Shown here in pieces: positions 43,246-54,777 of a stretch of DNA of 64,000 nucleotides; positions within the stretch are counted from its first letter, which is position 1, and each line of letters begins with the position of its first letter. The notes beneath the pieces are model-generated. The model was not told where the DNA came from. It ran no database searches and worked only from the letters and a program-made list of their open reading frames with translations. This DNA comes from Thalassotalea sp. LPB0316. GTDB taxonomy: Bacteria; Pseudomonadota; Gammaproteobacteria; Enterobacterales; Alteromonadaceae. The DNA lies in NCBI RefSeq assembly GCF_014898095.1, contig NZ_CP062946.1, forward strand, positions 3,472,001 to 3,536,000. The letters are read 5' to 3'. The translations under genes and the position numbers were made by a program.

Positions 43246-44262
43246 TTAAAATTGGGAATTCCTCGCATTTTCAATGCGCTCTAACGTTAACGGGTGACTG
43301 CTGAATAATGCATCAAGTTTATTGCCATCAGCGGCTAAGGTAGCGAACTTTTCCATTGCTACGGCAAAATCTTCGTTTGTTAGGCCAACTAATTTGGCAT
43401 GCTCCAACGCGTAATTGTCGGCTTCCCACTCTAACTTTTGCGAGTACTGATTTTGTACAATGGTATTCGATATACCAGCGAATACTTCGATCATCCCACC
43501 TAAGTCACCAATAAAATAATCTATGGCCATAGAAGCAATAATGGTTTCAGCAATTAAACGCATTGAATGATTGCGCTCTACATGACCAATTTCATGCAAA
43601 ACAATAGCAGCTAACAACTCAAAATTATTGTCTAACAAGGCCACTAGATCATCGGTAATGACAATAGTGCCATCGGGCAGTGCAAAGGCATTGGCGCCAA
43701 AAAACTCAGATTTGCGAAACTGAAATTTAAATAACTTGTCGGCAATATTGAGCTTACCGGTGAGTTGAGCTAATTGAACAACGTAGTTTTCAATGGTTTC
43801 TTCATCTAGTTCTGAGGGAGCCAATACGGTTTTATCTAGGGCATTTAGGGTGTTAGTAGAGGATATTTGGGTGACGTAACTAGGTACTAAATCGGCAAAT
43901 TGCACGGCAAAAGCAGGTAATAAGTATTTAAAAATACTAAACAAAAACAGGGGCACTAGGAGTAATGAAAGCAGTACTATTTTGCTATTGGATTCGAGCT
44001 TGCCGATATTATTATCAGCAAATAACCACTGATCGATAGACGCATTGGCATCGATGTACAAGCTGCCATTATCAGGTAATAACACTTCTCTGGGCATCTC
44101 TCCCAATTTAGAGCTAACTTTTAATTCTGACCTCGACAGCCGACGTAAAACTGTTTTTGAATCGTTTTCAATCACTTGTAAAAGGTCTGGGCTTAAAATA
44201 TTAACGGTAACAGGCAGTGATGACGAGCTGCCTGTTACATAGTAAGTTGCAGTGTTAACCAT
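43246..44262 (-). CDS. M48 family membrane metalloprotease
   Basis: This 338-residue protein has an N-terminal beta-rich part, one hydrophobic helix at about 94-113 and an M48 protease domain. Zinc motif HEIGH is at 223-227 with a likely third ligand Glu in LEWEADNYALEHA near 275. It resembles the BepA/HtpX/YggG side of M48, but has no TPR part. It is probably anchored by the helix with the protease domain in the periplasm. It overlaps the DUF898 gene by one base (ATG/TAA style), indicating one operon. Confidence 0.86.
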   Translation of the reverse strand: MVNTATYYVTGSSSSLPVTVNILSPDLLQVIENDSKTVLRRLSRSELKVSSKLGEMPREVLLPDNGSLYIDANASIDQWLFADNNIGKLESNSKIVLLSLLLVPLFLFSIFKYLLPAFAVQFADLVPSYVTQISSTNTLNALDKTVLAPSELDEETIENYVVQLAQLTGKLNIADKLFKFQFRKSEFFGANAFALPDGTIVITDDLVALLDNNFELLAAIVLHEIGHVERNHSMRLIAETIIASMAIDYFIGDLGGMIEVFAGISNTIVQNQYSQKLEWEADNYALEHAKLVGLTNEDFAVAMEKFATLAADGNKLDALFSSHPLTLERIENARNSQF

Positions 44263-45449
44263 TAGCCAATCGCAACATCAAGATCAAATGCCTCAGCGAT
44301 TTCATCACCAATCGCGTTACCGCTAGTCTCTTGACTCGCGAGGACACTATCTGCGCCTGCCATTACCCGAACTGTGGTGTTACGACAAAAATAATGTTGT
44401 TTTCTCACCTGTGTGAGTGGTAACGCCAAGCCAAACGTTAAAACTAACAACACTAGGTTACTAAAATTTAACCAGGCTAATTCAGTAAATTTAAAGTCTG
44501 AATCAAATTTTGCAACATCGTTTAACTCACTGTTGTCATAGATGTGATTTCTTATTCTTGCTTGGTAATAACTACCACACACTGTGTAAATAACTAAATA
44601 AGCTAACATGGTTAAAATAGATAACATGACAGACTGGTTTTGAGCCACCTCGGGATCAGTGCTAACCAAGCCTAGTTGGAACAAGACAAAAATTGCCGGA
44701 ATTGTCATTAACGCACTAATAAAACTAGCCTCCCAGTACGTCCCGCCCTGTAATTTTGTTTCAAAGCTTTTGTCACCATACTGAATATTGTCAATGATAA
44801 ACTCGTCCATCTTCGCTAATGCAAATGGCATGGCCAAATAAAACGTAAATAGTGATAAAAATGGATAAAGTACAAAAACTACAAAAGCGCGGCCGTACTT
44901 TCCATGGAATGAGAAACGAATGTTGCGATACCCAGTGACCTTCATCTTAAACTTAAGGCTTTGCACCACCAAAAATGGCATAAAAACGACCAGGCCAATT
45001 GCCAACATAGCTCCCGAAAAAGGTGAAATGGTAGCAAGCATGTAATAACCGACCAATAAAACTGCGGCAATGACTCGGCCTTTTAGTATTTGTATCGGGC
45101 TTGCTAAGTAGGTAAATCGATGGCCGTCAGCTTCGGTATTACCGTATATATAGCGAGTGTTTCGAACTTTAGCCCAAGGCGAGTATACGCCTAACGTCAC
45201 TATGGTCAGCAGTAAATTAACGATCCATATCGAAAAATACTCCTTGGCATTACCGTGAAACTGAGGGGTAATTTCACGTACAATTTTGTGTTCTTCTTGA
45301 AGGTGTTGTTGCTCAAACTTTTGATTGTGCTCGGCAATGAGTTTATCTAATTGCACCGCTCTGTCTGGGTATTGTTCAACATCAAGGTGTTGTCGAGCTT
45401 CTAATAACTCTTTATAGGTATAGGTTGAATAGTCAATATTGGGTTCCAT
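44262..45449 (-). CDS. DUF898 (YjgN-like) membrane protein
   Basis: This 395-residue polytopic inner-membrane protein has a soluble N-terminal coiled region (to about 65) and then around eight hydrophobic helices. EYFSIWIVNLLLTIVTLGVYSPWAKVRNTRYIYGN is the DUF898 signature, with a second copy-like segment LAWLNFSNLVLLVLTFGLALPLTQVRKQHYF near 325. The function is unknown. Its one-base overlap with the M48 protease gene is a recurrent pairing in this group and suggests the protease acts with it. Confidence 0.88.
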   Translation of the reverse strand: MEPNIDYSTYTYKELLEARQHLDVEQYPDRAVQLDKLIAEHNQKFEQQHLQEEHKIVREITPQFHGNAKEYFSIWIVNLLLTIVTLGVYSPWAKVRNTRYIYGNTEADGHRFTYLASPIQILKGRVIAAVLLVGYYMLATISPFSGAMLAIGLVVFMPFLVVQSLKFKMKVTGYRNIRFSFHGKYGRAFVVFVLYPFLSLFTFYLAMPFALAKMDEFIIDNIQYGDKSFETKLQGGTYWEASFISALMTIPAIFVLFQLGLVSTDPEVAQNQSVMLSILTMLAYLVIYTVCGSYYQARIRNHIYDNSELNDVAKFDSDFKFTELAWLNFSNLVLLVLTFGLALPLTQVRKQHYFCRNTTVRVMAGADSVLASQETSGNAIGDEIAEAFDLDVAIG

Positions 45450-45580
45450 GTCTTACTCCTAGACAAAATGTTCCTGATGCACTTCCATTTTTTATGTGTC
45501 ATTATTTTTCCACAAGTGCATGTATGTCGCAGTATGCGCTAGCTTCCGTAGATTTCAGCGCTGTGCTTTCGCATGCCATC

Positions 45581-45660
45581 AATGAATAAAAAACATACGA
45601 TTATCATAGTATTAACACATACCAATAAATAATTATGTAAAGACATGTTAAGAAATAAGC
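45581..45660 (-). repeat. 80-bp upstream module, copy A
   Basis: This segment upstream of the DUF898 gene matches 46681-46760 over 80 bp without gaps and with most bases identical. Conserved blocks include GAATAAAAAACATAC, AGTATTAACACAT and ATGTAAAGACATGTTAAGAAAT. It probably carries shared promoter or operator elements for the minus strand. Confidence 0.85.
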
Positions 45661-45703
45661 ATGAGTTGATAACGACTATTTGCATAAAGGGTGGAGGTTA
45701 TCC

Positions 45704-46312
45704 CTATTTTGATTGGGTTAGCACAACCACCTTTTGGCCAGTGTCGTGGTTCACCACTAACACTTCTTTGAGTGTCCATTGCTCGCCAAATTTCGTGGCA
45801 TAAACGTAAACTTGCGCTTGGGCTTCAGCGCCTTTAATGGTGTAATTTAAATTAGCCGAACCACTCGCGCCAGAGGTTGAGATTTCGCCTAAAACAAAAT
45901 AGCCCGGTTCAGGGTTGTTACCCACCAATGCGATTACTTGAGGGTTTGATGTCACTGCATCTAATGACATTTGATACGCCTTGCCTTTCATCATATCCAT
46001 CAATGGGATGAATATGATGAACACAGTAATAAATACTATAATGAGCCCTGCGTTTCGCCACTTTTTCTGAGTAGATTTAAAGTGTTCAACATCGCGCCAC
46101 GTGCGATTGCGCCATGCCCACTCGTTACCTTTAGCACCTAAAACAAAGAGCATGATGAAGTTAACAAAAGGCACAAACATCAGCAGCGCGATATATGTGC
46201 TATTGCCAATACCCCATAGCCAATTGAGTAAAAAAGCTCCCCAATTCCAACCTTTGATTTCTTCGGGCACAACTGACGCTTTACCCATTCCCGAAAGATA
46301 TTCCTTTTCCAT
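45704..46312 (-). CDS. Membrane protein with Coa1-like domain
   Basis: This 202-residue protein has an N-terminal hydrophobic part in the style of DUF2628 (EIKGWNWGAFLLNWLWGIGNSTYIALLMFVPFV), a helix at about 88-105 and a C-terminal Coa1-type domain (NPEPGYFVLGEISTSGASGSANLNYTIKGAEAQAQVYVYATKFGEQWTL). Such proteins are often annotated as cytochrome oxidase assembly factor Coa1-like, but there are no cytochrome genes here. It lies between the two copies of the repeated upstream module. Confidence 0.8.
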   Translation of the reverse strand: MEKEYLSGMGKASVVPEEIKGWNWGAFLLNWLWGIGNSTYIALLMFVPFVNFIMLFVLGAKGNEWAWRNRTWRDVEHFKSTQKKWRNAGLIIVFITVFIIFIPLMDMMKGKAYQMSLDAVTSNPQVIALVGNNPEPGYFVLGEISTSGASGSANLNYTIKGAEAQAQVYVYATKFGEQWTLKEVLVVNHDTGQKVVVLTQSK

Positions 46313-46905: not shown

Positions 46906-48069
46906 CTAAAAATAGGCATTAGTGATCAAGGTGTTAGCCCGCATTAAAAACGCGCCATTAGCTATCACACTATCAATAGCTAAACTTTGCTCATCAAGTA
47001 AGTTGATGTCGGCGTCATTACCAAGGATTAATCGGCCTTTTTGTTTGAGCGCGAGGATATCGGCAGGTGAGCTAGTGACACTGCGCAGTGCCAACTCAAT
47101 ATCGACCTGATAACAATTTATTGCTTCAACAAACGACTGATGTAAGGTTTTAACTTCACCAAGTTGTAAGTCGATGAGTTTTGCTTTGTCATCAAATACC
47201 GGCAAACTCGCGTTACCGTCGGAGCTCATGGTAAGTTGCCCAATATCAACACCTTCTTGTAAGGCGATGGCAAGCGCTTGTGCAGCAGCAACTTCACCTT
47301 GTGCTAAAATTTGCGCAGTCGTGCTGGTAGTAAAATCAATATAGCCACCTTGCTTTGCAAACTCTATACCGTCTGCTAGCAGCGCTTTTGTGCGGTTAAT
47401 ATGGGTTGGATAAAACTGTCCTACCGGGATAGCGCTATACTCGGCGACTTCTCGCAATAAATTGAGCCCTTGCTTATCGTCGCCAACATGAATACTCACA
47501 ATACCTGATTTACTCGCTAGCATGCCGCCGGTTCTCGCTTGTGAGGCTACTTGCGCTAGGGTTAGGTGATCAACAGGCGTTGCGCGATGATCGGCAATGG
47601 CGACCTCCCCCACGCCAATAAACTCGTCAATGAGCATAATATCTTTGGTAATTGATTCTGTTATCGTCACCGCCGGCAAATGGTAAGAGCCGGTATAACA
47701 ATAAACCGACAAGCCAAGGGCTTTAAGCTCTTTTGCCTTGGCGAGCAAGTTTTCCAAACTACGGGTGATAGCATCTGTACCTAATACACCAACTAATGTC
47801 GTCACACCACCAACGACCGCATCGTTAATGTGCATTTCTGGCGTGCGCGTGGTAAATCCCCCTTCACCACCACCGCCGGTAATATGAACGAGTGAATCGA
47901 CAAAACCCGGTACAACAAGCTTGCCTCTAGCATCGATAACTTCAACAAAACCACTATTGGGCATGGTTATTTCATCTTCGATGGCGATTATTTTACCGCC
48001 GGCAATTAAAACATCCTTCCGCCCTAAATCCTGTGGCGCATACACTCGACCTTGTTTTAATAATTTCAT
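46906..48069 (-). CDS. iadA: Isoaspartyl dipeptidase-like amidohydrolase
   Basis: This 387-residue amidohydrolase has the IadA signatures PGFVDSLVHITGGGGEGGFTTRTPE, VGEVAIADHRA, IHVGDD, YPTHINRT and TMSSDGNAS. It hydrolyses beta-aspartyl dipeptides. The metal ligands His194, His223, the bridging Glu155 (in place of the usual carboxylated Lys) and catalytic Asp284 are present. In the first HxH pair, however, only His62 remains and the partner is Leu60, so activity may be altered. It lies in a run with the YfcC transporter and TonB receptor, opposite a cyanophycinase. This suits hydrolysis of beta-Asp-Arg. Confidence 0.88.
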   Translation of the reverse strand: MKLLKQGRVYAPQDLGRKDVLIAGGKIIAIEDEITMPNSGFVEVIDARGKLVVPGFVDSLVHITGGGGEGGFTTRTPEMHINDAVVGGVTTLVGVLGTDAITRSLENLLAKAKELKALGLSVYCYTGSYHLPAVTITESITKDIMLIDEFIGVGEVAIADHRATPVDHLTLAQVASQARTGGMLASKSGIVSIHVGDDKQGLNLLREVAEYSAIPVGQFYPTHINRTKALLADGIEFAKQGGYIDFTTSTTAQILAQGEVAAAQALAIALQEGVDIGQLTMSSDGNASLPVFDDKAKLIDLQLGEVKTLHQSFVEAINCYQVDIELALRSVTSSPADILALKQKGRLILGNDADINLLDEQSLAIDSVIANGAFLMRANTLITNAYF

Positions 48070-48106
48070 TTAATTCTCATTTTAATTTTCGTCTGCGTTG
48101 AACCAA

Positions 48107-49561
48107 CTAGCTAAAGTTGATCATCACGGCAAAAACCACAAAACTTGCCGCTAAGGCAATTAACACCAACATAAATTTGGCGATAAACTTAGCCCAAATA
48201 ACCCAATCGACTTTGGCTACCCCCAAACAGCCGATCAGTGATGCCGATGTTGGAATAATAATATTGGTTAAGCCGTCACCTAATTGAAAGGCCAATACCG
48301 CAACTTGTCTGGTTACACCAACGAGGTCAGCGAGTGGCGCCATCAAGGGCATAGTTAAAGCAGCTTGGCCTGAGCCAGAAGCAATAAAAAAGTTAAACAC
48401 TGACTGAAACACCAACATCAATAACGCCGACACGTAGCTTGGAAAATCACCAATCGTTTGACCCGCGTAATGCAACAAGGTGTTGAGTACCGACGGCTGA
48501 CTCGGATCGTCGCCGCCGAGTAAAATCACGATCCCCTTTGCCATGCCAACAATCATCGCCGCCGGCAATAACTCTTGTGCCCCGTGTTTGAAGGCGTCTG
48601 CGGCATCGTTCAGCACAATGCGTTTTCCAATGACAGCGACAGCAGCGATGACACAGCCCATAGCAAAAAACTGGCTAGCAATTTCAGGTAGGTAGTAGCC
48701 TTTTTCTACCACGCCCCAAATCACCCAAGCGATCGACAAAGCAAAGATCGATAAAATCACCGCATCTACTTTACTAAATTCACCGGCACTAAGTGTTATC
48801 TCTGCTTGTCTTTGGTCTGTGCCACTGGTTTGTGCTTTGATCTGGTTAGCGTGTTTGACGGTAAAAATAACACCGACAAGGGTAAATACACTCCACATGG
48901 TCATGCGAAATGGTGTCCCCGACAATAACGGCACATCAGCAATACCTTGCGCAATAGCAACGCTAAATGGATTCATCCATGACGCGGCAAAGCCAATCTG
49001 AGTGGCAACATAAGTGACCAATACTGTGGTTAGGGCATCGTAGCCAAGTGCCCGCATGAGCGGCAACAAGACAATGCAAAAAGCTATCGCTTCTTCTCCC
49101 ATACCGAATATCGCACCACCGAGTGAAAACATGACGAATAGCAAAGGGATAAACAGATAATCAAGTTTCTGCGTTTTGTTGATCAAGGCCAAAATGCCGT
49201 TATTTACCGCACCGGTTTTCATGACAATACCAAAAGCACCGCCGGTAATAATGATAAACATCATCACGCCAATCGCCGATCCCCACTTGGTTCCTGAAAC
49301 CATACCTTCAAAGGCAAAGTTAAAAAAACCAACGCCCCCACTATCGGCAAAAATTGGCACGCCTTGTGTGCTTTGTAAGCGAAAGCTATCTGCGATGATC
49401 ATCGCTTTTTCACCCTCACTAGGCACCGACATTTGAAAACTGCCCGCAGGAATAACATGGGTTAAAATGGCTGCAACCAGTACCACAAAAAACAAAATAA
49501 TCAGCGCGTCAGGCATGGTAGAAGAAGGCGCTACCGCCTTTTCTGAAGTTGTATCTTTCAC
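48107..49561 (-). CDS. YfcC family inner-membrane transporter
   Basis: Start GTG 49561 is chosen because the resulting 15 residues before MPDALIILFF match the E. coli YfcC layout. The longer frame begins inside a terminator-like hairpin. The 484-residue protein has about 12 hydrophobic helices (IIITGGAFGIVMKTGAV, MFSLGGAIFGMGEEAIAFCIVLLPL, GFAASWMNPFSVAIAQGIADVPLLSG). The family, related to the AbgT/DcuC groups, is thought to carry amino acids or dipeptides. Next to iadA and a TonB receptor it likely imports the dipeptide or arginine. Confidence 0.85.
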   Translation of the reverse strand: MKDTTSEKAVAPSSTMPDALIILFFVVLVAAILTHVIPAGSFQMSVPSEGEKAMIIADSFRLQSTQGVPIFADSGGVGFFNFAFEGMVSGTKWGSAIGVMMFIIITGGAFGIVMKTGAVNNGILALINKTQKLDYLFIPLLFVMFSLGGAIFGMGEEAIAFCIVLLPLMRALGYDALTTVLVTYVATQIGFAASWMNPFSVAIAQGIADVPLLSGTPFRMTMWSVFTLVGVIFTVKHANQIKAQTSGTDQRQAEITLSAGEFSKVDAVILSIFALSIAWVIWGVVEKGYYLPEIASQFFAMGCVIAAVAVIGKRIVLNDAADAFKHGAQELLPAAMIVGMAKGIVILLGGDDPSQPSVLNTLLHYAGQTIGDFPSYVSALLMLVFQSVFNFFIASGSGQAALTMPLMAPLADLVGVTRQVAVLAFQLGDGLTNIIIPTSASLIGCLGVAKVDWVIWAKFIAKFMLVLIALAASFVVFAVMINFS

Positions 49562-49594
49562 GTTATAGCTCTGGTTATTTGAATAAAAGAATAA

Positions 49595-49615
49595 GGCTAC
49601 CACAGTGTGGTAGCC
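49595..49615 (-). terminator. Hairpin after the TonB receptor
   Basis: A 9-bp stem GGCTACCAC/GTGGTAGCC with a 3-base loop lies 10-30 bp past the receptor stop. On the minus strand it is followed by a T-rich run. It may only partly separate the receptor from the transporter gene. Confidence 0.6.
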
Positions 49616-49624
49616 CAACGATAC

Positions 49625-52582
49625 TTACTTAAAGAAGTAGCTAAATGATAACTGGTAGTTGACACCTAGCGCATTGTGGTTGATAGAATCAAAACCACGA
49701 CGTGAACCATAAGCTACCGGCGGCTCTTCATCAAACAAGTTGTGCACCGTAAAGTTGAGGTTCATATTGTCGAAATCATAGCCCATGTTAAAACGCACGG
49801 TTGTCCATGAATCAACATCGCGTTCGCCGTTAGCATCTAACTCACCTAACGCTTCAAGTTCATCAATATTACGACCGCGTAATCGTTTTATATCGTCTTG
49901 ATATGAGCTTGTGTAATCAGCCGTGATACTGGTGTAAAACTGCTCGCCTACCCAGCCAAGTCTAAAGCTTGCGATATTTTCAGGATAACGCCAAGTTCCA
50001 ATGAGCTCTTCAACATCGCTTGAACCGGCAAGATTGCGCTCAAAACTTGCGTAATGCGTGCCATCAATAGAGAAAGTTAAACGACCTTCGGCAAAATTGA
50101 CACTGTGATCAAAGGCTAAATCAAAGCCACTTACCTCCTGTGTACCTGTGTTATCTAACTGGATAACATGATCGCGGTATAAAGGTAAGGCATCCTCTCG
50201 ACCAAAGCCAGCGGCAACCCATTGATCTAAAATTTGTGTTAAATTCGCCCCGTCTTGCTCAATGTTCAAACCGTTGCTATCTAAGAATTCGTAGAGCACA
50301 CCATCATCGACAATACCGCTACAAAGCACTTCTTCATATGAAATACCCATGCTGCCTTCGGGCACTAAACCACAATGGCGAAGTGAGGCATCGTTAATGG
50401 CATCATTTAGCACTGCTGTCATATCGGTATCAATCAGCTGTTCGTGCTTAAACGACCAGTAATCAAGTGATAAATGGGTATCTGAAGACGGGCTCCATGC
50501 AAAACCGAGGCTAACCGACTCTGATTCTTCGGGTTTCAAATTAGCGTTACCCAACTCCAAAACATTTGGGCTTGAGGTAAAACCATCGCCTTCACAGTAT
50601 AAGTCAGCTACTGCTTGGTTTGCCGAGCAATCGTAAGTTGCTGTCGTTGTTCTTAGTTTTACACCTGCCTGGGTGAGTGAAGGCGCTCTAAATGATGTTG
50701 ACCACGCTGCGCGCAAGATAACCGATTCATGCGGGCGATAAGTGACACCAACCTTAGGGTTAAAGGTATCGCCAAAGTCGTTGTAATCGTCGTAACGACC
50801 GGCAAGTTGCAACTCTATCTGATCGGTAATTGGCCAGTAAAATTCAGCAAAGGCTCCCCATTGATTGCGATCCGCTTGTGATAAACTTGAACCAAAACCA
50901 AAAACATCAACTAAGTAGTCGTTTTCAAACCGTGCTCGAGCATTCATCGACGGAATATCGTTGATTTCTTCGCGTCTAAATTCAACGCCAAAGGCTGCGC
51001 TTATCATATGATCGTTGACTTCGGCGATATCACCAGAAATTTTTGCATCAATGCCGTAAACGGTGCTTTCACCGTCGCGAGTTGGCATTTCTTGAGCCAT
51101 TGCGAGTAACGCATCGTTGGTTGCATCTCCCGATAAAAATGGGTTGTACGTGCCAAGCAATTCACCCGCACCACAGCTAAGTGTATCGCTGTCGTAGTCG
51201 TAATCAGCAATTGAGCCGTTACTGCATAATTCGCCTGTGCTTACTGCGTGATACTTGTAGCGGTTGTAAATACCCGCACTAGCTACTTGTTCAGATTCAG
51301 ATTTTGATAACGTGATACCCGTTTCCCAAAACCACTCACCCCATTCGCCTGATAAACTCGACACTAAACGCATTGCATCGGTTTCGATATCAACAGTACG
51401 TGGACTTGCGAAACGCGCATCGTACCTAAAGCCCCAAAGCTGTTGTCCAGCTTGCGTATCAAACGGATCTATCCACATGTCGTAGATTAATGCATCGGCT
51501 ACCTCTGGTGAAAAAGCACCATAAATAGCCTCTTCGCCAACCCAAGGGCCTTCAGTGTCGTCAACTTGATCAATTGGCGCTGGCGATGAAACGGCTCGCG
51601 ACTTAGTGTTACTAATAAAGAAATCAGTATTCCACGTTACATCGTTAAAGTCGTAACTATAGATAAAACCTGCTGAGCTCGTTTCTAGCGCCGAGCGCAA
51701 TTGGTCATCTTCGTTGCTGTAGTAGGCACAAATCTCTTCACCGTACTCAGTGGTAACAAAATCTGTTTTACAATCTGGATTGCCAATTTCGTTGCCGTCA
51801 TAAGCCGAGTAGTAATAAATATTTGGCGTGTGCTTTGGCAAATATGAGTAGTTGCTCACCAGTACAGGATCACGGGTATAGCTTCTATCTTGAGCGTGAA
51901 ATGCGTTGCGATCAAAATGATCGGCAAAAACAGTTAAGTTACCACCGGCAACTTCACCACCCCAAATGAAGTTGAGGTTGTATCGACCTTCATCTGAACT
52001 GGCAAAGCTATTACCGTATGAGCCATTAATTTCAGCGCCTTGATAATCCGTTTTGAGGATGTAGTTGATCACCCCAGCAACGGCATCAGCACCGTAAATT
52101 GCCGATGCACCAGTCGCCAACACTTCAACTCGCTCAATCGCCGAAAGTGGGATTGAGTTGATATCGACAAAGTTTTGCGTCCCCGCGGCAAATGAGCTAG
52201 CAGCCACTCGGCGGCCATTGATCAAGGTCAGCGTTGATGAAGGTCCTAAGCCTCGCAATGATGCTGCTGCTTGTCCCGCAGGTGTTGACGTTGAAGTTGC
52301 ACCACTTTCAGAGGTGTTAAATGAGCCAACACCACCGCGAGTTTGGCTAATTTGCGCCATTAATTCTGAAATTGAACTGGCGCCTGAGCTGCGGATAGCC
52401 TGGGCATCAATAACCACTAACGGTTGCGTGCCTTCAAGATCAACCCCTTTGATTTGACTACCGGTAACTGTGATTTTTTCAATCGCAGCTGTTTCGTTTG
52501 ATTGGTTACTTCCCTCTTGCGCATTAGCGTTAAATATTGCTAACACAGACAGTGCTACTGCCGATAACGTAAATTTTTTCAT
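49625..52582 (-). CDS. TonB-dependent outer-membrane receptor
   Basis: Start ATG 52582 gives a normal signal peptide (MKKFTLSAVALSVLAIFNANA). The longer frame (to 52714) would place 44 extra residues ahead of it. The 985-residue protein has a plug domain (EKITVTGSQIKGVDLEGTQPLVVIDA, SLRGLGPSSTLTLINGRRV, RVEVLATGASAIYGADAVAGVINYIL) and a long beta-barrel ending in YQLSFSYFFK with terminal aromatic residues. Its substrate is probably a beta-aspartyl dipeptide or cyanophycin fragment, judged from the genes around it. It diverges from the cyanophycinase gene. Confidence 0.92.
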   Translation of the reverse strand: MKKFTLSAVALSVLAIFNANAQEGSNQSNETAAIEKITVTGSQIKGVDLEGTQPLVVIDAQAIRSSGASSISELMAQISQTRGGVGSFNTSESGATSTSTPAGQAAASLRGLGPSSTLTLINGRRVAASSFAAGTQNFVDINSIPLSAIERVEVLATGASAIYGADAVAGVINYILKTDYQGAEINGSYGNSFASSDEGRYNLNFIWGGEVAGGNLTVFADHFDRNAFHAQDRSYTRDPVLVSNYSYLPKHTPNIYYYSAYDGNEIGNPDCKTDFVTTEYGEEICAYYSNEDDQLRSALETSSAGFIYSYDFNDVTWNTDFFISNTKSRAVSSPAPIDQVDDTEGPWVGEEAIYGAFSPEVADALIYDMWIDPFDTQAGQQLWGFRYDARFASPRTVDIETDAMRLVSSLSGEWGEWFWETGITLSKSESEQVASAGIYNRYKYHAVSTGELCSNGSIADYDYDSDTLSCGAGELLGTYNPFLSGDATNDALLAMAQEMPTRDGESTVYGIDAKISGDIAEVNDHMISAAFGVEFRREEINDIPSMNARARFENDYLVDVFGFGSSLSQADRNQWGAFAEFYWPITDQIELQLAGRYDDYNDFGDTFNPKVGVTYRPHESVILRAAWSTSFRAPSLTQAGVKLRTTTATYDCSANQAVADLYCEGDGFTSSPNVLELGNANLKPEESESVSLGFAWSPSSDTHLSLDYWSFKHEQLIDTDMTAVLNDAINDASLRHCGLVPEGSMGISYEEVLCSGIVDDGVLYEFLDSNGLNIEQDGANLTQILDQWVAAGFGREDALPLYRDHVIQLDNTGTQEVSGFDLAFDHSVNFAEGRLTFSIDGTHYASFERNLAGSSDVEELIGTWRYPENIASFRLGWVGEQFYTSITADYTSSYQDDIKRLRGRNIDELEALGELDANGERDVDSWTTVRFNMGYDFDNMNLNFTVHNLFDEEPPVAYGSRRGFDSINHNALGVNYQLSFSYFFK

Positions 52583-52716
52583 GTTCTGACCGTTTATAAT
52601 TTTAATGGTAAATTGTGACCAGCGTTCCAAAGGTACAAGCAACTGCAGATACACCAAGGACTGGGCTTTAACGGAGTTTTTGTAAAGAGGGGGAGATGAA
52701 GTCGCAGACGCCAATC

Positions 52717-52743
52717 CCCCAGAAAACTCAAGGTTTTCTGGGG
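52717..52743 (-). promoter_or_regulatory. Leader hairpin of the TonB receptor
   Basis: A perfect 11-bp stem CCCCAGAAAAC/GTTTTCTGGGG with loop TCAAG lies about 135 bp before the receptor ATG. It has no T run on the receptor strand, so it is not a terminator. It may stabilise or control the leader RNA. Confidence 0.55.
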
Positions 52744-52843
52744 TTATTCGTCAAACCACTCCGAAAGATAAAAATTCGAGTAGTAATATGTTGTCAGCGT
52801 GAAAGCTTTCTTGTACATATTAAAAAGGTCTTCGATTAATTTA

Positions 52844-52865
52844 GAGCTTGACCCTAATCAAGCTC
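52844..52865. promoter_or_regulatory. 22-bp palindromic operator candidate
   Basis: Perfect 8-bp half-sites GAGCTTGA and TCAAGCTC, with a 6-bp centre (CCCTAA), lie between the two divergent arms, 110 bp before the cyanophycinase ATG. This is the form of a dimeric repressor site. The regulator is not identified. Confidence 0.55.
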
Positions 52866-52974
52866 ATTCAAAATTCACTTAATTTATAGATACCGTTGTC
52901 ATAAAAAATTGTCAACAACAATGTTAAAAAAACGTTTAGATTCGTCAATCAATCGTTAAAATAGGAATTTTGAA

Positions 52975-54777
52975 ATGCGACTATTTTCTGCAATTTTGCT
53001 GCTATTTTCTGCCATAACGCTGGCAAAAACCGAAAACACACCTTACAAACCAAGCCAGCTTTTTTTAGTTGGTGGCGGTTTAAAATCTTGTTCATCAATG
53101 TCAAAAAACCAATGTTTGACACCCGAAAAGCATCAAGAAATAGAAGTTAACAACAGCAAAACCCATGCGCTTTTTCAGCTAAACCACAAAACGCGAGCAC
53201 AAGTTTTCGCCTTAATGGATCAAGAATATTCTGCTGAGCATGCTAAACAATTAAAAAAATTACTTAATAAAGCGATAAAAAACGCGAGTAAAACCCCGGT
53301 TAGCAAAGGGGAAATGGTTAAGTTTTTAAAAACATTTGATAACAACCAACTCATTAATCGACTATCCGACCCTGAATATTTTTTACTCTTAGATGCCTTA
53401 GAAATTGCTCAGATTGATAAAGTAACCGGCGAAAGGCTGCAGGAAACCGTCGATTTAGACCGCTCAAAAAATAGTTTTACCCCGCAGATCTATCGCGACT
53501 TTGTTAAACGAGCACAACGGCTAACTCACCAACAACGACCCCATATTTTGGTGGTAACAGCATCGGCAAGAGATAGTTTTGAAGCGGTTGATTTTTATAT
53601 TCAAGCGTTTGTTCAAGCTGGCGCAAATACGCAGTGGCTACCAATTGACGCAAGCTTGCAGCCGCTTATTAGTGCTACAGCAAACGATAGAGCAAACCTG
53701 TGTGATCAACTGCCAACCAAACGACTAGCAATCCAAAAGTCAGCCTACCGCGAAGCTATTTATCCTGACTTAGTTCATCAGCAACGCCTTGCATGTCTAG
53801 AACCACAGCGCTTGCTCGAACAAGTAAAACAGGCCGATGGGATTTTTATTAACGGCGGCGATCAATCGCTAACTAAGCAAGCATTTATTAAGGCCAATGG
53901 CCAAGACACCGAGGTAATGGCATTAATTCGAGAAAAGTTTGACCGTGGTAATTTTATTATTGGCGGCACTAGTGCTGGTACTGCAGTTATGGCAGGCGGT
54001 CAATTTAATCAGCACGCTATGGTGATGATCACCAGTGGCCAAAGTGATAGAGCCATGTTTTATGGTGCCCACGCCGATGTTGTGCCTACCGAGGGCTGTC
54101 AAAAATCAAATACTTGTAACGATGCGCCAAACGATCAACTCACTTATGCAACGAGCGGCGGCTTGGGACTGTTCAATCTTGGTATTTTAGATACCCATTT
54201 CTCAGAGCGCGGTCGTCAGGGACGTTTAGCCGTACTAGCACATACGACTCAACATCAACTCGCTTTTGGCGTAGATGAGCGGACAGCTTTAGTGGTAACT
54301 AGACTAAACCAAGATAAACACGAATTATCTGTCGTTGGTCAATCGGGTGTGTTTATTGTTGAAAATCCACTGATTGCTAACAATACAAACGCTAATAATA
54401 CTGACACCAACAACACACCTAGTCGCTTGACGGTTAAAACTCACTATATTCACCAAGGCGATAGTCTCGTCGTAAATGACACCGGCACACTTAAGTTTTC
54501 ATTGTCAAAAGATAAAGTTGTAACCGAGCAAACGACGGGGCTATTACCTGAAATCAACAATATTTTTGCTGGTGAAAATTATCTGAAGGCAGCTAAATTA
54601 TTGTGCTTATCGGATCAAACTGAGTTAATCGGTAATGTCTCTTACGATAACCAACGTGGTAAGGTAATAGTGACAAAAACTGAGCACAGTGTTTCTGTAC
54701 AAGGGTTATATCAGTTGGCGAAGGTCGAAAAGCACGACTGCTCATATACTCACTATCAGCTGACGTTAAGCCACTAA
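52975..54777 (+). CDS. Secreted cyanophycinase (S51 family)
   Basis: This serine exopeptidase releases beta-Asp-Arg dipeptides from cyanophycin. A signal peptide (about residues 1-17) exports it. The start of the domain (QLFLVGGGLK, 28-37) is followed by an unusual insert of about 150 residues. The S51 core then continues with HILVVTASARDSFEA, GIFINGGDQSL, IIGGTSAGTAVMAGG (nucleophile Ser333) and LGILDTHFSERGRQGRL. At 600 residues it is much longer than the 270-residue intracellular CphB. It faces the TonB receptor, transporter and isoaspartyl dipeptidase genes, suggesting extracellular cyanophycin use. Confidence 0.88.
   Translation: MRLFSAILLLFSAITLAKTENTPYKPSQLFLVGGGLKSCSSMSKNQCLTPEKHQEIEVNNSKTHALFQLNHKTRAQVFALMDQEYSAEHAKQLKKLLNKAIKNASKTPVSKGEMVKFLKTFDNNQLINRLSDPEYFLLLDALEIAQIDKVTGERLQETVDLDRSKNSFTPQIYRDFVKRAQRLTHQQRPHILVVTASARDSFEAVDFYIQAFVQAGANTQWLPIDASLQPLISATANDRANLCDQLPTKRLAIQKSAYREAIYPDLVHQQRLACLEPQRLLEQVKQADGIFINGGDQSLTKQAFIKANGQDTEVMALIREKFDRGNFIIGGTSAGTAVMAGGQFNQHAMVMITSGQSDRAMFYGAHADVVPTEGCQKSNTCNDAPNDQLTYATSGGLGLFNLGILDTHFSERGRQGRLAVLAHTTQHQLAFGVDERTALVVTRLNQDKHELSVVGQSGVFIVENPLIANNTNANNTDTNNTPSRLTVKTHYIHQGDSLVVNDTGTLKFSLSKDKVVTEQTTGLLPEINNIFAGENYLKAAKLLCLSDQTELIGNVSYDNQRGKVIVTKTEHSVSVQGLYQLAKVEKHDCSYTHYQLTLSH

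Follow-up and report, generated by a model that had tools for sequence, protein, structure and literature searches.

In a 64,000-nucleotide stretch of Thalassotalea sp. LPB0316 (contig NZ_CP062946.1, positions 3,472,001 to 3,536,000; the window, in which position 1 is its first letter), four genes and a short leader open reading frame probably form a regulated system for scavenging cyanophycin, a nitrogen reserve of cyanobacteria. A gene for a cyanophycinase-like protein of peptidase family S51 faces what looks like a leader-controlled operon for a TonB-dependent receptor, a YfcC-type carrier, and an isoaspartyl dipeptidase (IadA) with an altered metal motif. The leader peptide is the most unusual part of the locus, whose features are as follows.

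46906-48069, minus strand: IadA, isoaspartyl dipeptidase with LxH for the HxH metal motif (TIGR01975)
47890-47892, minus strand: codon of IadA Leu60, at the place of the E. coli metal ligand His68 (alignments)
48107-49618, minus strand: YfcC-type inner-membrane carrier of the DcuC family (NF008611)
49625-52582, minus strand: TonB-dependent receptor, with the likely ATG start (open reading frame as listed to 52714; Plug and barrel domains)
52717-52743, minus strand: 27-base stem-loop, a hairpin directly 3' of the leader stop
52744-52818, minus strand: leader open reading frame, 24 codons plus stop, MYKKAFTLTTYYYSNFYLSEWFDE then stop (conserved peptide, synonymous variation)
52975-54777, plus strand: S51 cyanophycinase-like protein, 600 residues, probably exported (Pfam S51)

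The S51 protein has matches in 237 of 395 genomes of the host's family (E ≤ 0.001, weak matches included). Linkage was examined in 60 stretches, each of up to 20 kb around a strong S51 match and spread over genera rather than drawn at random, where partner genes were detected by tblastn with the window proteins. YfcC was found in 53, the receptor in 50 and IadA in 49 of these loci. All four genes are present in 46, and 42 of the 46 share the divergent order of S51 against receptor-YfcC-IadA (the exceptions are L066, L071, L072 and L082), an order kept at S51 identities as low as 27%. A preliminary description of this DNA had proposed conserved linkage in relatives as a check on its reading, and the shared layout bears that out; linkage in distant genera rules out a chance neighbourhood of the four genes. 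Among the 50 receptors of related loci, 42 show 56-83% identity and eight 29-45%. Other matches to the receptor in its own genome are 25-40% identical, over parts, and by sequence the receptors of these loci stand apart as a separate group. When named genomes were first scanned with the S51 protein, no relative came up. The congener G001 has no S51 match, the IadA model giving only weak amidohydrolase matches there (best E 1.5e-6). A second type of locus (L132-L140, L190, L198, L199, L201 and L202) has S51 and an LxH IadA with neither receptor nor leader; YfcC is present in all but L135, and the S51 serine motif is GSSAG in both proteins aligned (L132 and L139).

The four reading frames lie where the preliminary description had placed them, and their families are confirmed by Pfam and NCBIfam. 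IadA scores 452.4 bits against the TIGR01975 equivalog (cut-off 331.25), YfcC 660.7 bits against NF008611 (cut-off 500), and the S51 protein 34.8 bits against Pfam S51 (cut-off 23.9); the receptor has both Plug and barrel domains. Signatures had also been claimed for every protein. This does not hold in full for IadA, whose first metal histidine is leucine. The listed receptor frame, opening with TTG at 52714, is probably too long, and the ATG at 52582 (MKKFTLSAV...) is the likely start on sequence grounds. The true start of YfcC is probably also downstream of its listed TTG. As listed, receptor and YfcC are separated by 6 bases and YfcC and IadA by 37, short gaps that make the three genes operon-like, although the first gap grows if YfcC starts downstream of the TTG.

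The leader lies upstream of the receptor gene on the operon strand and reads MYKKAFTLTTYYYSNFYLSEWFDE up to its stop, with the C-terminal end YLSEW[FW][DN]E. The strip between the S51 and receptor genes aligns with that of a congener over 176 of 191 bases at 89% identity. Within it, the 75-base leader frame differs from that of the congener L033 by one synonymous base, while the S51 proteins of the two are only 62% identical. DNA comparison showed that the strip recurs in many of these loci. A regular expression with Leu-Ser of the end fixed and a few alternatives allowed elsewhere recovered 90 leader peptides in 88 loci, with YLSEW in 90 of 90, an invariance that is partly by construction because the patterns fix part of that end. 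The residues that follow are Phe (84) or Trp (6), then Asp (61) or Asn (29), then Glu (89). Outside the expression, Met1, Lys3, Ala5, Leu8, Tyr11 and Tyr13 are conserved in 82-91% of 93 copies. Six leucine codons and five serine codons, AGC included, are used at the conserved end; it is therefore the peptide, and not the RNA alone, that is kept. Leaders of the family loci stop with TAG (43) or TAA (24) and never with TGA (n = 67), whereas neighbouring genes use TAG 64 and TGA 53 times (n = 293); over all loci, TGA ends 1 of 90 leaders. The near-absence of TGA fits an RF1-type event.

Distribution of the leader follows the locus. A degenerate pattern of 27 bases that covers the peptide end and the stop codon occurs at 130 places in 125 of the 395 family genomes, and its reversed control at none. 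In a draw of 369 genomes from the class it matched two, the window's own genome and one further member of this family; the Halomonas-type leaders come from the named genomes only, and the draw is no measure of spread outside the family. Of the pattern places, 112 lie within 12 kb of an IadA place (130 of at least about 150 IadA places were used), and among the other 18, 13 adjoin an S51 place and five were fetched. The gene after the leader, taken as the longest open reading frame within 700 nucleotides, is a TonB receptor in 85 of 99 cases, YfcC in eight and S51 in one; the remaining five, all in Halomonas-type loci, have no profile match. The 53 YfcC-bearing loci of the 60-locus sample all have a leader (52 by expression, L037 by eye). 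Some genomes have two or three copies (L053, L082, L155 and G205 (L071, L286, L287)), and in L082 and L155 one leader precedes the receptor and another YfcC. In Halomonas sp. QHL1 (L236, 2433-9137) the same leader end occurs with an LxH IadA, an amino-acid type ABC importer and an AstE/AspA-type protein. Its leader is followed by a family 3 solute-binding protein, one of two in the locus, directly before the LxH IadA gene. A wider regulon in the own genome was also considered, but a looser six-residue pattern gave the leader and one YFTEWF site that was taken as chance. Region 52400-53100 has no Rfam match at E ≤ 1.

RNA folding points to a hairpin behind the stop. Of the 99 leaders, 94 were left once duplicates and those lying too close to the end of a contig had been set aside, and in 74 of these the 50 nucleotides after the stop are stabler than mononucleotide shuffles (z < -1.5). 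Such low energies are found in 19 of 94 and 9 of 94 for the next two 50-base steps, and in 21 of 93 upstream. The stem begins at a median of 8.5 nucleotides past the leader stop. Compared by eye with L033, both arms of the hairpin stem at 52717-52743 carry changes. An inverted repeat, GAGCTTGA-N6-TCAAGCTC, lies a short way upstream of the leader at about 52844-52865 and is identical in the congener L033; it is a possible operator or part of a promoter.

The S51 protein has the catalytic Ser, His and Glu and the substrate residues, namely the Gln of GGDQ and the row of arginines, that are expected of a cyanophycinase. Gln297, Ser333, Asp406, His408, Arg412, Arg414, Arg417 and Glu435 are invariant in 31 aligned S51 sequences and line up with the solved cyanophycinases 3en0 and 7uqv. 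The residue roles used for this matching are those of CphB, where His174 and Arg178 have been described (PMC12661447). An AlphaFold2 model of the protein (pLDDT 90.8) has cyanophycinase entries as its nine best fold matches in the PDB, with a TM-score by target of at most 0.75; among them is 7uqv, whose entry title reads pseudo-CphB. Like CphB and CphE, the window protein has the S51 core fold, the catalytic triad and the arginine row. It differs from them in its length of about 600 residues, a helical insert of about 155 residues after the first strand, a C-terminal beta region in the last 115 or so, and its score below the equivalog cut-off.

The N-terminus of the S51 protein is signal-like by eye, and eight of its cysteines are conserved, seven of them invariant in 31 relatives. 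The cysteines, which may be paired, fit an exported protein, in keeping with the export signal read by the preliminary description. The own genome holds no cyanophycin synthetase over the cut-off (best CphA1 score 103.9 bits; cut-off 850), which makes scavenging the best reading. As in a cyanophycin-utilisation locus, cyanophycinase, dipeptidase and transporter are linked where no cphA1 passes the cut-off. The earlier proposal of cyanophycin scavenging thus keeps the support of linkage, fold, invariant residues, the lack of a synthetase over the cut-off and the congener with no S51 match, but not that of complete IadA signatures. A second S51 gene of the genome (G000:C1:2480870-2481481) scores 234.7 bits across the whole Pfam S51 model and, judged by this score, is more PepE-like than the S51 protein of the locus.

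Isoaspartyl dipeptidases are described as a binuclear family, divided into type I with a glutamate ligand (e.g., Colwellia CpsIadA) and type II with a carbamylated lysine (e.g., the E. coli enzyme) (PMC5517026). The window IadA shares the fold, Glu155 and the substrate residues of type I. Its residue 60 aligns with the first metal histidine of the E. coli enzyme and is leucine, so that the ligand set (HxH, Glu or Lys, His, His, Asp) is incomplete at this one place, the other ligands being present. By sequence it belongs to type I but lacks the first histidine. One metal site alone would be left fully furnished, by analogy with D-aminoacylase, for which an entry titled on one-metal activation (1v4y) turned up in a structure listing. 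No signal sequence was seen by eye.

The substitution was followed in 165 IadA sequences: the window protein, 84 of 85 from family genomes (all but L088, a fragment) and a further 80 from named genomes. These 80 are the best of at least 349 relatives, so distant IadA proteins are under-represented. Some named loci duplicate other family genomes (e.g., L173 and L060), and 162 of the 165 rows are different in the tree; nine named loci whose motif was missed by the first expression were assigned HxH by a wider one. The first metal position is Leu in 106, the window included, and His in 59. Eleven further active-site positions were compared: ten do not vary among the 165 sequences, and at the eleventh, Ser288, 14 proteins of the His group have Cys; in the 106 LxH proteins all eleven are unchanged. 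With this residue masked, one change between Leu and His suffices on a FastTree tree, where support for the branch dividing LxH from HxH is low (13). The leader accompanies 83 of 106 LxH rows by expression and 0 of 59 HxH rows.

Among family IadA proteins with a readable motif, all 70 near YfcC or S51 are LxH. Those with no S51, receptor or YfcC nearby are HxH in 14 of 14 and LxH in none. The 35 LxH proteins of the named set are all from Gammaproteobacteria (Shewanella, Thalassotalea, Pseudoalteromonas, Rheinheimera, Halomonas and relatives, Reinekea, Aliikangiella, Microbulbifer and others), and the Bacillota and Holophagaceae of that set have HxH proteins, in some cases together with S51 and a YfcC-like carrier. 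The idea that LxH signals S51 linkage was rejected as too narrow: Halomonas-type and Reinekea loci are LxH where S51 was not found, and some Bacillota loci are HxH with S51 and a YfcC-like carrier. From this distribution, LxH marks a gammaproteobacterial group and not cyanophycin loci as such. Outside the Gammaproteobacteria, an HxH IadA near S51 and a DcuC/YfcC-like carrier occurs in L214 (Bacillus sp. FJAT-27225) and in L213, L216 and L223 (Holophagaceae and Acidobacteria). The S51 protein of L214 was confirmed by Pfam, and the S51-profile frame of L223 has no Pfam family.

In the proposed mechanism the exported S51 protein would cut cyanophycin outside the cell to beta-Asp-Arg. The TonB receptor would carry the dipeptide or short oligomers across the outer membrane, and YfcC would move the dipeptide across the inner membrane to a cytoplasmic IadA, which would split it into Asp and Arg. 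A metabolite of the pathway (beta-Asp-Arg, Arg or Asp) may stall the ribosome at the leader stop, with YLSEWFDE held against the stop codon. The stalled ribosome would then open the hairpin behind the stop, or block Rho, and transcription would reach the receptor-YfcC-IadA operon. The IadA subfamily lacking the first metal histidine may work with one metal or with an altered second site. A more specific version is put forward tentatively, its chances being somewhat below even: that nascent peptides of a new family, the YLSEWFDE leaders, bind beta-Asp-Arg, Arg or Asp in the ribosome tunnel, arrest termination and so switch on a TonB uptake operon in response to a peptide nutrient, and that the dipeptidase, having lost one metal ligand, works with a one-metal or rebuilt centre.

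A number of observations weigh against the cyanophycin system as proposed, beside the constructed share of the YLSEW invariance noted above. Seven of the 60 S51 loci have no partner gene, and four have leader, receptor and YfcC with IadA not near. The S51 protein reaches 115.1 bits against the cyanophycinase equivalog TIGR02069, whose cut-off is 126.6. On the operon strand no clear U-run accompanies the hairpin (mean 2.6 T in 8), and the terminator-like call made at it is on the plus strand only, opposite to the operon. A Shine-Dalgarno sequence is not enriched before the leader (8 of 90; shuffles 13.7%), so translation of the leader needs another explanation, such as a leaderless mRNA or weak initiation. 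The leader of L037 is a variant with His for Tyr17. By expression 23 of the 106 LxH rows have no leader: the L037 variant, 14 receptor-less loci, four on short contigs, and L162, L170, L176 and L180, in which no leader was found. A search for divergent leaders in ten LxH loci lacking one gave none that was convincing.

Part of this evidence would suit a locus whose substrates are beta-aspartyl or other aspartyl peptides of any decaying protein rather than cyanophycin in particular, the S51 protein being a broad exported peptidase. The S51 score below the equivalog cut-off fits it, promiscuity has been described for an IadA of a cyanophycin cluster (PMC10206079), and the LxH IadA and the leader end occur together in Halomonas-type loci where S51, YfcC and receptor all go undetected by profiles, one of these loci (L236) having an ABC importer alongside. 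PepE-like dipeptidases also match the S51 fold, but at weaker scores; cyanophycinases rank clearly higher in the fold search (E about 1e-11, against 1e-6 for PepE). The invariance of the R412/R414/R417 row, the GGDQ Gln and the catalytic residues in 31 sequences speaks against a broad peptidase as well, and we consider this explanation unlikely. A dead or changed IadA, serving as a binding protein or another hydrolase while a housekeeping IaaA does the splitting, would account for the leucine found in the window protein and 105 further sequences, and an IaaA-type gene is indeed present elsewhere in the genome. Yet the other active-site positions are all kept in the LxH group, and a single change on the tree with Leu retained over wide divergence is unlike decay, which leaves this the most improbable of the alternatives.

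The leader could also be an ordinary attenuator that reads tRNA charge through its Tyr, Phe and Trp codons, or a translational coupler, with no metabolite bound. It is rich in aromatic residues, and most copies are followed by a hairpin, as such a device would be. The operon should handle Asp and Arg, yet the majority consensus has no Arg (position 12 is Arg in 11 of 93 copies) and one Asp or Asn near the end. Charge sensing for the amino acids of the pathway is therefore unlikely, and beta-Asp-Arg, Arg or Asp is proposed as ligand instead. Conservation that peaks over the last eight residues before the stop, together with the near-absence of TGA, is what termination arrest would give, and attenuation or coupling is accordingly judged rather improbable. 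Part of what an arrest leader should display is found here: a short reading frame ahead of an operon, with a peptide conserved up to its stop codon.

The leader looks like a metabolite-sensing arrest peptide of the TnaC/SpeFL kind. TnaC, also of 24 residues, stalls at its own stop with Trp and keeps Rho off, and SpeFL senses ornithine and blocks RF1 (PMC8429421). Like them, the present leader is a short reading frame ahead of a catabolic operon, and it would arrest at its stop. The present leaders differ in the hairpin behind the stop and in the TonB receptor as the usual next gene; stalling would be expected by analogy, and no likeness of sequence is claimed. The idea of cyanophycin scavenging for such loci is not new. 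Genes for cyanophycinase and isoaspartyl dipeptidase are clustered in 45 of 52 genomes having both and no cphA1 (PMC10206079), and scavenging loci with transporters are known from strain L21-Spi-D4 and Flammeovirga pacifica WPAGA1 (cited in PMC10206079). The window locus likewise joins cyanophycinase, isoaspartyl dipeptidase and transporter; compared with the loci in the available parts of that paper, it is distinguished by its gammaproteobacterial host, TonB receptor, YfcC, leader and LxH dipeptidase. A TonB receptor near a cyanophycinase, with cyanophycin as likely substrate, was proposed in 2012 for Citromicrobium sp. JLT1363 (PMC3400609). The two genes are close there as here, but no dipeptidase, YfcC or leader is named in the part of that paper available. 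Cyanophycinases of marine relatives have also been described (PMC2536512, PMC7564069).

In the open-licence literature we found nothing that joins cyanophycin with YfcC, no description of the leader (judged by title and abstract of the papers listed) and, in the portions available, no mention of the IadA Leu variant. The preliminary description had called uptake by TonB receptor and YfcC a less described route. For the YfcC link this can stand; a TonB receptor beside a cyanophycinase, and loci with a transporter, were already in print. The leader and the Leu substitution in IadA had escaped that description. Further along the window, a DUF898 protein and a Coa1-domain protein are encoded at 44262-46312, with an M48 peptidase on one side and the IadA gene on the other; neither had a match in the 60 related loci by tblastn.

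To our knowledge, few bacterial leader peptides sense a small metabolite by ribosome arrest. If the proposal is true, this leader would represent a new type of sensor and, for TonB receptors, a new form of control, found in a Halomonas before a different type of transporter as well. Its 27-base signature would flag likely eaters of cyanophycin or beta-aspartyl dipeptides in sequence data, and the altered IadA would serve as a natural experiment on how far the reaction depends on a two-zinc centre.

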